Assembly (NCBI RefSeq): GCF_002441935.1
Contig: NZ_CP023668.1
Location: forward strand, 186,001 to 250,000
From: Mesoplasma lactucae ATCC 49193
Lineage (GTDB): Bacteria > Bacillota_I > Bacilli_A > Mycoplasmatales > Mycoplasmataceae
Direction: 5' to 3'
Length of the DNA: 64,000 nucleotides
Positions 7,426 to 35,812 of this stretch are shown here, piece after piece. The position numbers and the translations under genes are program-made. The notes under the pieces were generated by a model, which worked only from the letters and a program-made list of their open reading frames with translations, searched no databases and was not told the origin of the DNA. Numbering within the stretch: position 1 is the first letter of the stretch; every line of letters begins with the position of its first letter.

Positions 7426-7452
7426 GGGACAATTTCATGATTTTTATCTTAT
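7426..7452 (+). promoter_or_regulatory. GGGAC-N16-TCTTAT element, copy A
   Basis: GGGAC at 7426-7430, 16 bases, then TCTTATTC from 7447. It lies just after the preceding terminator and 95 bases before the lipoprotein start at 7548. It matches the copy in front of recA in both boxes and spacing. The lipoprotein also has a possible ordinary TATAAA at 7510, so the target of this copy is unclear. Confidence 0.55.
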
Positions 7453-7547
7453 TCTTTATTAAAGGCACAAAACTTAAATAATACAAGATACATATATAAG
7501 TGTGTTTGTTATAAAATTAAGTCATAAAATTGAGGGAGAAAAATTTT

Positions 7548-9811: not shown

Positions 9812-9838
9812 GGGACAAATGATAATAATTCTTCTTAT
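9812..9838 (+). promoter_or_regulatory. GGGAC-N16-TCTTAT element, copy B, inside a terminator arm
   Basis: GGGAC at 9812-9816, 16 bases, TCTTATACC from 9833. The second box lies inside the left arm of the terminator at 9821-9869. A transcript starting about seven bases downstream would contain only the right arm and so escape termination. The lipoprotein at 9986 is 147 bases further on and has its own standard promoter. Confidence 0.5.
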
Positions 9839-9869
9839 ACCTATATGAGAAGGATTATTGTCTTTTTTT
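9821..9869 (+). terminator. Long terminator hairpin after lipoprotein 3
   Basis: A 16-base left arm (9821-9836) pairs with 9847-9862, including several G-T wobbles, and is followed by seven T. Confidence 0.8.
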
Positions 9870-11879: not shown

Positions 11880-12262
11880 ATGAGATTTTGATTTAATCGC
11901 TATATTTGAAAAATAATATAGAGGAAACTCCACGCTTGCACGACCTGTGATGGTTGTAATGATTATGCTAACTGAAAAAATAAGGTTAGGCTGACTTTGG
12001 AGAAAAGTTAGACGGCAAAACTTAATCTAAGGTAATTTATTGCTATGATGATGTTTTTGAAAGTGCCATAGAGACGAGAAAAAGGGAAACCTTTGAGATG
12101 GAACGCGGTAAACCCCATAAGCAAGAAACTCAAATTTTGGTAGAGGAGTCGTTTCAAGGTAATCAGAACTGAGAAACGGACAGTATTTATACTGTAGATA
12201 GATGGTTAAAACTAAACTTTTGTTTAGAACAGAACGTGGGTTATGATAAATCTCATCATATT
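11880..12262 (+). ncRNA. rnpB: RNase P RNA (bacterial type B-like)
   Basis: The catalytic RNA of RNase P, which removes 5' leaders from pre-tRNAs. Seen directly: the 5' conserved block GAGGAAACTCCACGCT near 11931, the ATAGAGACGAG block near 12068, GGAACGCGGTAAACCCC near 12102, and the 3' block ACAGAACGTGGGTTAT near 12230. The ends pair as helix P1 (TGAGATTT at 11881-11888 with AAATCTCA at 12248-12255). Length about 380 bases is normal. A T-run follows at 12261. A -10-like TAAAAT lies at 11868. Ends are approximate. Confidence 0.95.
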
Positions 12263-12287
12263 TTTTAAAGGTTTGTTAGGTGATAAT

Positions 12288-12782
12288 ATGCCAGAAGAAT
12301 TAAAATTAAAAATTCAAGAAATTTTTCAACTTCTAAAACAAGAAAATTGAACAATGGCAAGCGCTGAAAGTTTTACTGGTGGTGGGTTTGCAAACACCAT
12401 TACTAATGTTAGCGGTTCTAGTGCTGTTTTCTTAGGTTCATTAGTAACTTATACAAACGAAATGAAACATGATTTTTTAGATATTGATGAACGAATCTTT
12501 AAAAAATATGGAGCAATTTCAAAAGAATGCGCAACAGCAATGGTTGTTGGTTGTCAAAAGAAAACCATTGCTAACTTAACTGTTGCTTTCACAGGAAATG
12601 CTGATCGTAATGTTAGTGAGAATAAACCAGCTTTTGCTGGTTTTATTGCTATCAAATTAAATGATCAAGAACCTGAAATTTTTGAATTTAAACAAGAAAA
12701 TACTATGAATATGAATCGAGAATTGTTTAAAGAATTAGCAATTAATTTTGCGATTGAAAAAATTTTGGGACTTTTAAGCTAA
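12288..12782 (+). CDS. cinA: CinA C-terminal domain protein (nicotinamide-nucleotide amidase, PncC type)
   Basis: 164 residues, the stand-alone CinA C-domain. The signature AESFTGGGFANTIT followed by GSSAVFLGSLVTYTNEMK is seen from about residue 25; the family's usual AESCTGG has Phe in place of Cys here, while the catalytic Ser is kept. The family deamidates NMN to nicotinic acid mononucleotide. The residue pattern AFTGNAD matches the usual TG.AGP region weakly. It sits directly before recA, the order known from Firmicutes, where both are competence-induced. The recA promoter-like element overlaps its last codons. Confidence 0.88.
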
Positions 12783-12793
12783 AAACTTCTTAT
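12767..12793 (+). promoter_or_regulatory. GGGAC-N16-TCTTAT element, copy F, in front of recA
   Basis: GGGAC at 12767-12771 inside the last codons of cinA, 16 bases, then TCTTATACC from 12788. The recA SD (GGAGG) follows seven bases later and the ATG 19 bases after the second box. No TATAAT-type box is visible upstream of recA. Confidence 0.7.
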
Positions 12794-12812
12794 ACCTATT
12801 TGGAGGAAGAAA

Positions 12813-13889
12813 ATGGAAGCTTTAAATACAAATACAAAAAATAATTTAAAAAATGAGGTTCTAACACAAATGGCAAAAGATAAAAAAGACGATGATATTT
12901 GAAATGATGAAACTCTTAAAGGACTTTTAAAAGATATTGAAAAATCTTTTGGGAAAGGTTCAATCCATCGTTATGGCGATGTTGAAGTATCTTCAAAACA
13001 AGAAGTTATTTCATCAGGTTCAATTCTTTTAAATAACGCGATTGGTGTTAATGGATATCCAAAAGGAAGAATCACAGAAATTTATGGTCCTGAATCAAGT
13101 GGGAAAACTACTTTAGCATTACATGCAATTGCAGAATCACAAAAAACTGGAGGAGTTGCTGCTTTTATTGATGCAGAACATGCTTTAGATCCAAGATATG
13201 CAAAAAGAATTGGTGTTGATATTAATAACTTATTAGTTTCACAACCAGATAACGGAGAACAAGCATTAGACATTTTAGAAATGCTAGTTAAATCAAACAC
13301 AATTGATATTGTTGTGATTGATAGTGTGGCAGCCTTAGTTCCCAAATCAGAACTTGAAGGTGAAATGGGAGATCAAAACATCGGTCTTCAAGCGAGAATG
13401 ATGTCAAAAGCTTTACGTAAGCTAAACGGAATTGTTGCAAAAACTAATACAACTGTAATTTTTATTAACCAAATTAGAGAAAAGGTTGGAGTTGTTTTTG
13501 GAAATCCAGAAGTAACATCTGGTGGAAGAGCATTACGTTTCTATTCATCATTAAGAATTGAAACAAGAAAAGGTGAAACCATTATTAAAGATGGTGAAGC
13601 AACTGGAAATAAAATCAAAATCAAAGTTGTTAAAAATAAAGTAGCCCCACCTTTTAGAACAGCAATAATTACAATTAACTACAACGAAGGAATTGATAAT
13701 GAAAATGAAATTATCGATTTAGCTTCAACTTATGAAATTCTAGATAAAGCTGGAGTTTGATATTCATATAATGGTGAAAAAATTGGTCAAGGACGAGAAA
13801 ACACTCGTAAATGACTTCAAGACAACCCAGATAAAAAACAAGAAATTTATGACAAACTTTATCAAATTTTAGAAAACAACAATAAATAA
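12813..13889 (+). CDS. recA: Recombinase RecA
   Basis: 358 residues, full length. It forms filaments on single-stranded DNA and drives strand exchange in recombination and repair. Walker A GPESSGKT is at about residue 92, followed by the RecA motifs [32 protein letters not shown], and the L2 region [32 protein letters not shown] encodes Trp at three sites. The start at 12813 follows GGAGGAAG; it adds about 20 residues before the family's usual start, and ATG 12870 is an alternative. Preceded by the GGGAC/TCTTAT element, suggesting separate regulation from cinA. A hairpin follows at 13925. Confidence 0.97.
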
Positions 13890-20022: not shown

Positions 20023-20071
20023 TTCCATAAAACCTTATAGTATAATTAAAAAATAAAAGGAGTTGATTTGA

Positions 20072-21028
20072 ATGGCATCAGCAAATAACTGATTCCCAGG
20101 GCACATGAATAAGGCTCTGAAAGAAATTGAAAATTTAATTGAGGCTGTTGATGTCGTTGTTGAAGTTGTTGATGCACGTGCTCCTTATTCAAGTCAAAAT
20201 CCAATTTTCCGTCGTGTTTTAAAAAACAAAGCTGTGATTTATGTCATGAACAAAGTCGATGTAGCAGATCCAGAAATCACTAAACAATGAGACGAATATT
20301 TTAAAACCCAATCTGATCATAAATATGTTTTAGAAGTTGAAAAAAATTCTCAAAATATTACTAATAAACTTGTGAATTTAATTAATGAAGCCACTAAAGA
20401 ACGACAAGAAAAAATGAAAAGAAAAGGGTTAGTTAATCCGCAAATTAACGCCTTAGTGATTGGTTTACCAAACGTTGGTAAATCAACTTTTATTAATAAA
20501 ATTGTTAAAGGTAAAAAAGTTAAAGCTGGTAATAAACCAGGATTAACGCGCGGATTACAACGAATTACTTTAACTAAAAATATTACTTTAATTGATACAC
20601 CAGGAATTATGCCTTCAAAAATTCCAAATGAATCAACTGCATGTAACTTAACAATGATTAACTCAGTTAAAGAAGGAGTTTTTTCTTTAGAAAGAATGGC
20701 TGCTCGTGCGATGCGTTATGTTTATAATAACTATCCTGGAAGAGTTGAAGAAAGATATGATGCAAGAATTGGTTTAATCCCTCCAATTGAAATTAGTGAT
20801 ACTTACCGTGTCTTTGAAAAAATTGCTAAGAAAAACAACTGAGTATTATTAAATGATATGTATGATGTTGAACGAGTAATGCTAACTTTTGTTCGTGATT
20901 TACAAAACGGTAAATTAGGAAGAATGAGTTTTGAAACTCCAGAAATGATTGAAGATTTATCAATTGAAAAATCAGAAAAAGATGAAGAAATTGAGGATAA
21001 AACTGTTGATGTTACACAAGAATGATAA
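20072..21028 (+). CDS. rbgA: Ribosome biogenesis GTPase YlqF/RbgA
   Basis: 318 residues. Needed for late 50S assembly in Bacillus. The GTPase is circularly permuted, which identifies the family: NKVD (G4) comes first, near residue 60, then GLPNVGKST (G1) near 130 and DTPG (G3) near 174. The N-terminus WFPGHMNKAL is the family signature. The C-terminal domain ends in an acidic tail and WTrp from TGA. SD AAAGGAG, TATAAT at 20041. Its end overlaps rnhB by 20 bases. Confidence 0.96.
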
Positions 21029-21638
21029 TTCAAGATGAGAATTTGATAATCAATACCGCAAAAATGGCGAAATAATTGCTGGATGTGATGAAGCTGGACG
21101 TGGTGCTTTAGCTGGACCAATCGTTGTAGCTTCAGTTGTTTTTCCATCAGATTATCAAAATCCAGAAATCAAAGATTCTAAAAAAATGACAGCTTACCAA
21201 CGTGAACTTCAATTTGAAGAAATTAAGAAAAATGCTTTAAGTTATTCAATTGCCATTCTTTCAAAAGAAATTGTTGAAAGAAGAAATCCAAAAGCAACTT
21301 CAATCAAAGGAATGGAATCTACTTTAGAGGATTTAGAAGTTGAAATTGATATTGCTTTAGTTGATGGTGAAAAACTTCCAGACACGCACGATTTTGAAGC
21401 AATTCAATTAATCAAAGGTGATGATAAATCTTTAACAATTGCTGCTGCAAGTGTTTTAGCAAAAGTAACAAGAGATCGTATTATGGATGATTATGATGAA
21501 ATTTATCCTTGATATGGTTTTAAAAATAATAAAGGTTATGGGACTAAAACACACATGGATGGTTTAAAACAAAAGGGTGCAAGTGATATTCATCGTCGCA
21601 CTTATAAACCAGTTAAAGATGTTTTGAAAAAAAGTTAA
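21009..21638 (+). CDS. rnhB: Ribonuclease HII
   Basis: 209 residues. Cleaves RNA in RNA/DNA hybrids and at misinserted ribonucleotides. The catalytic DEAGRGALAGP motif starts near residue 27; later motifs are DSKKMT, the acidic VDGEKLPD, and AAASVLAKVTRDRIMDDY. I chose ATG 21009 in the overlap with rbgA because it is the only ATG upstream of the DEAGRG motif in this frame without an intervening stop; GAGGAT nearby could serve as SD. The rbgA-rnhB order is conserved in Firmicutes. Confidence 0.93.
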
Positions 21639-21864: not shown

Positions 21865-21891
21865 GGGATTTTTTATTAACTTTTCTCTTAT
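21865..21891 (+). promoter_or_regulatory. GGGAT-N16-TCTTAT element, copy C, in front of a structured RNA
   Basis: GGGAT (21865-21869), 16 bases, TCTTATTC from 21886. The structured RNA begins at 21895, where transcription would be expected to start (about 21898). Confidence 0.6.
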
Positions 21892-21894
21892 TCT

Positions 21895-22013
21895 AATGTG
21901 AGGGAGAAGAACGGAATCCGCTATATGATAAGTTTTTCGGCAAAAACAATTAAATAGGTATTATTGAGAGGTTTTCTTATTTAATGTCATATCCAATCTT
22001 TTCTCTCACCATT
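21895..22013 (+). ncRNA. Novel candidate RNA with three-way junction
   Basis: A closing stem P1 pairs 21895-21910 with 21997-22013 (about 16 bp with G-T wobbles and one bulge). Inside, P2 pairs 21923-21929 with 21986-21992. P2 encloses exactly two hairpins: GTTTTT/AAAAAC with loop CGGC (21932-21947) and ATTAAATA/TATTTAAT (21949-21985). Only a few unpaired bases separate the helices, so the junction is compact. A 3-bp CGG-CCG hairpin sits at 21912-21920. There is no start codon behind the GAGGGAG in its 5' arm. It does not show SRP, tmRNA, 6S or known riboswitch signatures that I recognise. It may be a free RNA or an upstream element of the ssb-dprA transcript. Confidence 0.6.
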
Positions 22014-22068
22014 ACATTGGTGTTCAAAATCTAATATTTAAACTTTTAAAATAATTTCACAAAAATGT

Positions 22069-22094
22069 GGGATTATTTTTTATTTTCTTCTTAT
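22069..22094 (+). promoter_or_regulatory. GGGAT-N15-TCTTAT element, copy D, in front of ssb-dprA
   Basis: GGGAT (22069-22073), 15 bases, TCTTATTC from 22089; the SD GGAGGAAG follows and the ATG is 21 bases after the second box. No TATAAT nearby. Confidence 0.65.
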
Positions 22095-22115
22095 TCTATA
22101 TTGGAGGAAGAGAAA

Positions 22116-22424
22116 ATGAATAATGTAATTATGATGGGAACTCTTGAAGGTGACGCAGAAGTTATCTACACTAGTCCTGATGGAAATAAAAGTTTATATA
22201 AATTTTTATTAAAAGTTCCAAAACCTTATAAATCTAAAGATGGGACAAACCCACCAGAAGATTTAGTAAATATCAAAGTTTGATCAACACAACTAACTGA
22301 TGAATATATTCTTCATGACCAAGCATATGTTGGAATTGAAGGAAGAATTAATTCATATGCTGGCAAAGATTATAAAAATGTTGTCAACGACATCATTGCA
22401 AACAAGGTAATTTACTTAGCTTAA
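22116..22424 (+). CDS. Small single-stranded DNA-binding (OB-fold) protein
   Basis: 102 residues. The N-terminus MNNVIMMGTLEGDAEVIYTS and the strand pattern LYKFLLKVPKPY, VNIKVWSTQL, AYVGIEGRINSYAGKDYKN, IIANKVIYL follow the OB fold of SSB proteins. It lacks the acidic C-terminal tail (DDDIPF type) that recruits partners, so it is not a typical housekeeping SSB; it resembles the short second SSB-like proteins linked to recombination. The start is ATG 22116 behind GGAGGAAGAG. Its stop overlaps the dprA-like start (TAATG), so the two are translationally coupled. Confidence 0.75.
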
Positions 22425-23152
22425 TGCAAATGGATAAAGTTCTTTTACACTTTGCTTTGAAATATGATGGTGAATGAGAAAAAATCTATGATGCACTTGA
22501 TAGAAAAGAAAAAATCAGTGCTAAAGATTTAGAAACAGTTGAAACAAAAATCAATTGTAAATATATGACAATCCTAAACCCCTTATACCCTAATAATCTA
22601 AAGAATTGTCATCGTCCACCATTTGTTATCTTCTATCAAGGAAAGATTGATTTACTAATTAACTACTATAGTATTTTTACTTATCTTTATGAAGAAGGGC
22701 TTGAACCAACAACCATTAGTGATTTTGAAAAAATGACTAAGAGTTTTGTGAAAGCTGATAAAACTTTCTTATTAGGTAATTTAAATTTAATGTCTAACTT
22801 TATTAACAAAACCATAAAACAACAAACTGATAATTGAATCGAATTAAAAGATGCGATTAAAGATTGTCCTGACACTGAAACTACCCTTTATATCAGTGAA
22901 GCATACGAAAAGAATGCAAACGACAAATGATTTATTAATCGCGTCTTACCAGGTTTAGCAACTGCAACGATTGTTTTAGAAGCTAATCGTGGTTCAGAAG
23001 TTGATGACGTAATTAAATATGGAATTAATGAAAATAAAGAAATATTTGTTTTACCCCTAGCAACAAATATTAAAAAGAAAGTTAATAACTTTTTAATCAA
23101 ACAAGGTGCTAAATTAATTGAAAAACCAAGTGATGTTTTGAACGAATTTTAA
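22424..23152 (+). CDS. dprA: Diverged DprA/Smf-like DNA processing protein
   Basis: 242 residues, shorter than the usual 280-360. DprA loads RecA on incoming single strands in transformation. Support: YPNNLKNCHRPPFVIFYQGK (family YP..L..i.dpP.vLf.rG) and, near the C-terminus, NRVLPGLATATIVLEANRGS...ENKEIFVLPLATN...NFLIKQGAKLIEKPSDVL, which follows the family order RNRIIAGLS..vvVvEA..SGS...gReVfAVPG..N.LI..GA. The central nucleotide-binding motif SGGARGID is not recognisable, so activity may be altered. Alternative start ATG 22430. Coupled to the SSB-like gene upstream. Confidence 0.75.
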
Positions 23153-35015: not shown

Positions 35016-35042
35016 GGGACAAAACTCTGATTTCTTTCTTAT
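35016..35042 (+). promoter_or_regulatory. GGGAC-N16-TCTTAT element, copy E, in front of an orphan gene
   Basis: GGGAC (35016-35020), 16 bases, TCTTATACC from 35037, in the same form as at recA. The orphan gene's ATG is 32 bases after the second box. No TATAAT in the interval. Confidence 0.65.
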
Positions 35043-35074
35043 ACCAAGATAGAGGAGAAAAGAGAAAAGAATTT

Positions 35075-35812
35075 ATGCAAATAGAATTATTAAAAAATAA
35101 GGATACCAATGTTGTTGAACGCTTAAGTATCCAACATTACAACCAAGAGGTATTAAAAGCGGTTTGTAATTTAAACCTTACACATGAAGATAGTATGGTT
35201 TATTTAGGAAGACTAGATATTAAGTGACACAACTTATTTATCAATTATGATCCAGACAAAAAGTTAGAGTTTTTAAAAACTGGGTTTATTGATTTTAACC
35301 AAAACAAAGAAGTTGAGTACTTCTTAAACTACTTTGTTGATTATCAAGACAAGTTAAAAGAAATGACAAGTGATGATGTGAAAAAAGACATGTGATTTAT
35401 TAACTATTATTTCTGATGTATGTTTTATATTATGATAAAAGATTTATGCTGAAGTCAAGAACTTGTGATTGGTAATCAAGTTGATGAAGAATATTCAGCG
35501 GTTTATGATCCGATGATTTTGTTTTGTTTAGAGGGAATTGATTATTTAAAGAAATTTAATTTAATTACTAAACAACAAAGCTTAATGTTTGATTTCATTT
35601 TTTATATGGATTTAGATACAAAACCAGATTCGTTATTTAAATACCTAAAAGATATGAAAATTAATAATCAAAATATTAATTTATTAGTTTTTGAAAAAGA
35701 AATCTTATTAACTTCTGAAGCTGAAAACCAAGACCATGTTTTTTGAATGTTAAAACAAAAAGCAATTAGTGGGGTTGTTTTAGAAATTATTAAAGAAAAA
35801 AATAAAGCCTAA
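35075..35812 (+). CDS. Hypothetical protein in the putative recombination regulon
   Basis: 245 residues, not recognised. Start ATG 35075; AGAGGAG lies 17 bases upstream, farther than usual, so the true start is slightly uncertain, though no other start codon fits. The chain is cytoplasmic, helix-rich and unusually rich in aromatics, with a cluster read through TGA codons (DMWFINYYFWCMFYIMIKDLCW, about 105-126), which may be a buried or membrane-associated helix pair. It is bounded by terminator upstream and clpB control region downstream, so it is transcribed alone from copy E. The recA-type element is the only clue to its role. Confidence 0.78.

Follow-up and report, generated by a model that had tools for sequence, protein, structure and literature searches.

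A short SSB and an eroded DprA in Mesoplasma lactucae: a probable single unit of a pared-down regulon for late competence

The genes for a short single-stranded DNA-binding protein (ssb2) and a diverged DprA in Mesoplasma lactucae probably form one transcription unit of a reduced SigH/ComX-type late-competence regulon, in which an alternative sigma factor would drive comE, ssb2-dprA, recA, and ruvAB. This reading is based on features that are observed: the protein families and their folds, the operon itself, a clade-specific box shared by these genes, the sigma gene with its conserved gene order, and a comEC frame that is intact. The genome is a single contig of 837471 bp that uses the Mollicute code, with TGA read as Trp; the window is the whole stretch of 64,000 nt that was analysed, and positions refer to it unless they are given as contig positions.

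The ssb2-dprA operon

The operon and its upstream neighbours are as follows.

20063..21028, + strand: rbgA/ylqF GTPase gene, upstream neighbour (TIGR03596, 7.2e-90)
20931..21638, + strand: rnhB (ribonuclease HII), upstream neighbour (NF000594, 2.5e-69)
22069..22096, + strand: 'copy D', putative sigma-dependent promoter of ssb2-dprA (GGGA-N17-CTTATTC, GGGATTATTTTTTATTTTCTTCTTATTC)
22116..22424, + strand: ssb2 (SsbB-like), encoding a 102-aa OB-fold SSB (PF00436, AlphaFold model)
22424..23152, + strand: dprA (smf) orthologue, 242 aa with eroded Rossmann motifs, downstream of rbgA-rnhB (PF02481, fold, profile)

A first-pass annotation, made from the sequence alone, had described an SSB-like protein without the acidic tip, linked through a TAATG overlap to a DprA-like protein without a clear SGGARGID motif, the pair being preceded by copy D. 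Each of these points holds. The stop TAA of ssb2 and the ATG of dprA overlap as TAATG at 22422-22426, and the operon starts 20 bp downstream of copy D, which lies at 22069-22096. Homologues of dprA begin with the Met of MDKVLL, the second one here (ATG at 22430), so either dprA ATG may be the true start.

Read with TGA as Trp (code 4), the ssb2 frame ends in NKVIYLA and has no acidic tip, and its product scores 26.9 bits with PF00436, just above the Pfam cut-off of 26. The AlphaFold model (pLDDT 79) has the OB fold that the annotation had anticipated, and in the PDB it is most similar to SsbA/SsbB proteins (E 2.8e-7). The second, standard ssb that was to be sought is also present: a 169-aa frame at contig position 671554, ending in DDDSILWD and located among ribosomal protein genes, near rpsF and rplI. 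With its OB fold, its SSB profile, the absence of the tip, and a separate full-length SSB, the 22116-22424 product meets, as judged from sequence and model, the description of an SsbB-type SSB. The SsbB proteins of B. subtilis and S. aureus are likewise short OB-fold SSBs present as a second copy beside a full-length SsbA; ssb2 differs from them in lying in an operon with dprA, and identity in fold alignments is only ~21-24%.

The DprA frame scores 53.8 bits with PF02481 (Pfam cut-off 29.6), and its model (pLDDT 86) has the predicted Rossmann fold, with S. pneumoniae DprA (3uqz) as the top PDB match (E 2.5e-13, TM 0.71; profile match 2.7e-25). The two proteins share an N-terminal helical region and a Rossmann core, but at 17% identity the M. 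lactucae protein has lost the glycine-rich GSR and SGGARGID loops of 3uqz. In a comparison with relatives these loops are absent from DprA of the whole genus; they are degenerate in the relatives and present in an Erysipelotrichaceae relative (L215). The curated equivalog TIGR00732 is not reached (42.9 bits against a cut-off of 191), which, together with the lack of glycine loops, indicates a diverged DprA-family protein rather than a canonical DprA. The missing SGGARGID is part of a graded erosion of Rossmann motifs across Mollicutes, and membership of the family is not in doubt; the function could have changed, the glycine motifs being lost. The gene also retains the ancestral DprA neighbourhood, with rbgA-rnhB upstream; rbgA-rnhB-dprA is the ancestral Firmicute order, as in B. 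subtilis. Of the family's 60 genomes, 54 carry a DprA homologue, with ssb directly upstream in nearly all those outside genus g7.

A recurrent promoter-like site

Copy D is one instance of a site, GGGA-N17/18-CTTATNC, of which the window contains the following further copies and associated features.

7426..7454 (contig 193426), + strand: site before a lipoprotein-like gene (motif search)
9812..9840 (contig 195812), + strand: site before a lipoprotein-like gene (motif search)
12243..12782, + strand: CinA C-terminal-domain gene directly 5' of recA, giving the order cinA-recA (PF02464, 5.2e-37)
12767..12795, + strand: site GGGA-N18-CTTATAC before recA (motif search)
12813..13889, + strand: recA (TIGR02012, 490.8 bits)
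21865..21893, + strand: second site, 204 bp before copy D, before a predicted hairpin RNA (motif search)
21893..22015, + strand: predicted hairpin transcript in the rnhB-ssb2 gap (z -2.56, 1 of 200 shuffles as stable)
35016..35044, + strand: site before a gene for a 245-aa protein of unknown family (35075-35812), followed by a clpB-like AAA+ gene

The site is not a product of chance, since the window has 6 copies against 0.18 expected (none of 100 shuffles reaches 6) and the genome has 14 against 1 for the reversed pattern used as a control. The genes that follow the 14 sites include recA, ssb2-dprA, and ruvA-ruvB; besides these they are mostly genes for lipoproteins or secreted proteins, along with a HAD-type gene, a Fic-type gene, and the gene for the 245-aa protein, which has no Pfam match. 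(The HAD and clpB labels were read from the sequence, without a profile.) Many of the other sites stand before genes for secreted proteins or lipoproteins that are not known to take part in competence, and this counts against the competence reading; such surface proteins may themselves belong to the regulon. In streptococci, ComX targets include ssbB and cinA-recA.

Several other observations concern the site. Five copies (contig positions 100576, 193426, 195812, 485206, and 521609) precede genes for predicted lipoproteins, secreted or unknown proteins. Three near-identical copies lie at the contig ends (24-51, 836082, and 837411), one of them before a Fic/Doc-type gene, and perhaps represent a repeat that spans the point where the circular record begins. 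Right after the second site, 21893-22015 would fold into a long imperfect hairpin and has no long reading frame; a search of this RNA against Rfam returned no family at gathering score, and the regulon may thus include it as a small RNA. A less strict pattern, GGGA-N-CTTATNNNTA, was set aside, as its 7 matches against 2 in the control represented little gain.

ComEC and the box across the family

The search for comEC and comEA proposed in the annotation was borne out in part: comEC is present, and the small protein encoded with it (94 aa) has no Pfam match and no recognisable ComEA helix-hairpin-helix. With the Pfam model PF03772, ComEC goes undetected here, as it does in Mesoplasma and in several further genera. 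A family profile built from relatives (A1) matches at contig 290478-292538 with E 1.4e-128, within a single intact open frame of 700 codons; of the 19 genomes tested, 18 match the profile strongly (the exception, G004, reaches only 0.004). Once this profile had found the gene, an earlier idea of a module that persisted after the loss of ComEC was given up. The comEC of genome G009, which we take to be Mesoplasma florum L1, is also matched, with one in-frame TAA reported at the match. The comE operon consists of the small membrane protein and ComEC, and in M. lactucae a near-copy of the site, TTCTTACTCTTATTGAAGGAG, lies before the small upstream gene, deviating by one base (CTTACTC).

Across the family, a clade-specific box just 5' of the ribosome-binding site is common to ssb-dprA, recA, and ruvA, and in most clades the comE operon carries the same box as the other genes of its clade. 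The box is CGAT in g8 and CTAAT, CTTAA, ACGTT, or CTTATWC elsewhere; the box expected before recA, ssb-dprA, ruvAB, and comE in M. florum is of the CTTAATAA type. Boxes were counted 8-48 nt before start codons and compared with other gene starts of the same loci. CGAT in g8 precedes comE in 7 of 8 cases, ssb in 13 of 17, recA in 17 of 18, and ruvA in 13 of 15, that is 50/58 starts against 4/224 other gene starts (Fisher 5e-42). Seven other genera gave p values of 6e-8 (g12), 5e-6 (g11), 1e-5 (g1), 5e-5 (g10), 8e-5 (g6), 1e-3 (g9), and 0.02 (g2). (It should be kept in mind that the patterns were picked after seeing the data and that related genomes were treated as independent.) What is expected of a SigH/ComX regulon, a shared promoter-like box before comE, dprA, ssbB, and recA, is met as far as comparison of sequences can establish it. 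The g9 box, ACGAA/ACGAT, is close to CGAATA, the core of the streptococcal ComX box. A -35 shared across clades was considered and rejected, GGGA being clear only in the genus of M. lactucae.

A single suggestive example comes from M. genitalium, whose recA (genome G070, within 412000-431900) is preceded by TTGCACTTATTTATAAGG, which resembles the box CTTATTCTATATTGG of the M. lactucae genus; ruvA was not found in the M. genitalium stretches examined.

An alternative sigma factor in the sigH locus

Once the housekeeping factor is set aside, the genome's strongest sigma-70 match is a protein of 197 aa (contig 662401-662991), the only other full-length sigma-like gene found. It lies in the order rlmB-sigma-secE-nusG. 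The sigH locus of Firmicutes has been described (PMC3364868), and on gene order the 197-aa factor occupies that locus; in g6 and g11 the gene has moved from its place between rlmB and secE-nusG. The sigma-70 model TIGR02937 recognises all 17 aligned members, and SigH models recognise 5 of them. A profile built on them (A3) finds matches in 174 of 298 genomes of the order, M. florum included; in several g8 genomes the factor is very diverged or not found. In M. genitalium, A3 matches 533876-534274 (E 3.5e-10), between osmC-like and ptsI genes, which is the place of MG428, so that the M. lactucae factor is, by profile and position, homologous to M. genitalium sigma-20 (MG428). The M. florum L1 homologue is encoded at 323363-323932 of its contig; yet only one sigma factor is reported for M. 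florum (PMC7745072).

In g7 the sigma gene and the putative regulon decay together. The six genomes with an intact sigma gene all keep comEC, ruvB, and recA; in the eight where it is broken or absent, every genome has a disrupted or missing comEC, and seven a disrupted or missing recA (sigma-comEC co-loss, p 3e-4). The states of the g7 genes were assigned manually, overall decay of these genomes is a confounder, and the longest comEC frame seen in one genome (G015) is 568 codons. In a g6 genome (G011), stops or splits interrupt the sigma gene, dprA, and ruvB alike, while recA is intact.

A proposed mechanism and its rivals

By analogy with SigH/ComX systems, the sigma factor of the sigH locus would direct RNA polymerase to a dedicated promoter just 5' of the ribosome-binding sites of comE (the small membrane protein and ComEC), ssb2-dprA, recA, and ruvAB. 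ComEC would then bring in single-stranded DNA, which the short SSB would coat and protect; DprA would displace SSB and load RecA, RecA would pair the strand with the chromosome, and RuvAB would process the joints, completing the exchange. That the sigma factor reads the box, that the regulon is induced, the order of these steps, and DNA uptake itself are all inferred, there being no expression or binding data, and the link between sigma and box is one of association only. The annotation's suggestion that SSB and DprA, co-regulated with recA, form a single-strand module for uptake or recombination is supported by the confirmed folds, by the box common to recA, ruvAB, and (in most clades) comE, and by the intact comEC.

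SigH-like factors of non-sporulating Firmicutes turn on late com genes (PMC3364868, PMC3486894). As here, SigH of Lactobacillus sakei and Staphylococcus aureus lies in the cysS-nusG sigH locus, and the SigH/ComX regulons of L. sakei, S. aureus, and Streptococcus have comE and dprA among their targets; the M. lactucae regulon is unlike these in its very few genes, its inclusion of ruvAB, its wall-less host, and the change of box from clade to clade. With the sigma-20 regulon of M. genitalium it shares a homologous small sigma factor and the targets recA and ruvAB. In the part of PMC9262362 that was available, no ssbB-dprA or comEC targets are reported for sigma-20, whereas the M. lactucae regulon includes comE and ssb-dprA and its sigma gene is still in the sigH locus. 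No literature on competence regulation in Spiroplasma or Mesoplasma was found in a search that left out most subscription papers and preprints.

The main rival explanation is an internal role as in M. genitalium, that is, a sigma-20-type recombination regulon for reshuffling chromosomal genes, such as those for surface proteins, with uptake of outside DNA no longer its present role and ComEC a leftover. The homology of MG428, its control of recA and ruvAB for antigenic variation (PMC9262362), and the M. lactucae sites before surface or lipoprotein genes all fit such a role. We nevertheless judge it unlikely: comEC is intact, shares the box in most clades, and decays with sigma in g7, and ssbB together with dprA usually marks transformation, not gene conversion.

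It is less likely still, though conceivable, that co-regulation is real and the regulator wrong, with the housekeeping sigma, or some activator not yet identified, reading the box. In its favour, transcription-start data from M. florum gave one promoter motif only, TAWAAT (PMC7745072), and sigma is very diverged or not found in several g8 genomes; yet the box is unlike TAWAAT and nearly absent from other gene starts, and the sole other full-length sigma-like gene decays with the regulon. Hardly credible, in our estimate, is that ComEC imports DNA as food (nucleotides) and that the recombination genes serve only repair. A nucleotide-uptake role has been proposed for other mycoplasmas in which comEC lies near thymidine genes (cited in PMC11004492), but shared control with dprA, ssb, recA, and ruvAB is what one would expect if an incoming strand is recombined, not digested.

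Implications

Beyond the late-competence reading of ssb2-dprA, a wider proposal can be put forward only tentatively. The regulon would be a near-minimal transformation programme kept in Spiroplasma, Mesoplasma, and relatives, in which ComEC, SSB, an eroded DprA, RecA, and RuvAB are under the control of a relic of SigH, with a promoter code that has drifted from clade to clade; M. genitalium sigma-20 would be the remnant after loss of the uptake genes. According to earlier descriptions, Mollicutes have almost no transcription factors and often lack ComEC. The box shared by ssb2-dprA, recA, ruvAB, and comEC nevertheless points to an overlooked programme of natural transformation in M. lactucae and its relatives, run by a SigH-like sigma factor, and a shared competence regulon would explain DNA exchange among small genomes. 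It would also account for the evolutionary origin of sigma-20, serve as a clear example of joint change in a sigma factor and its promoters across many clades, and provide a natural route to transform minimal-cell chassis.
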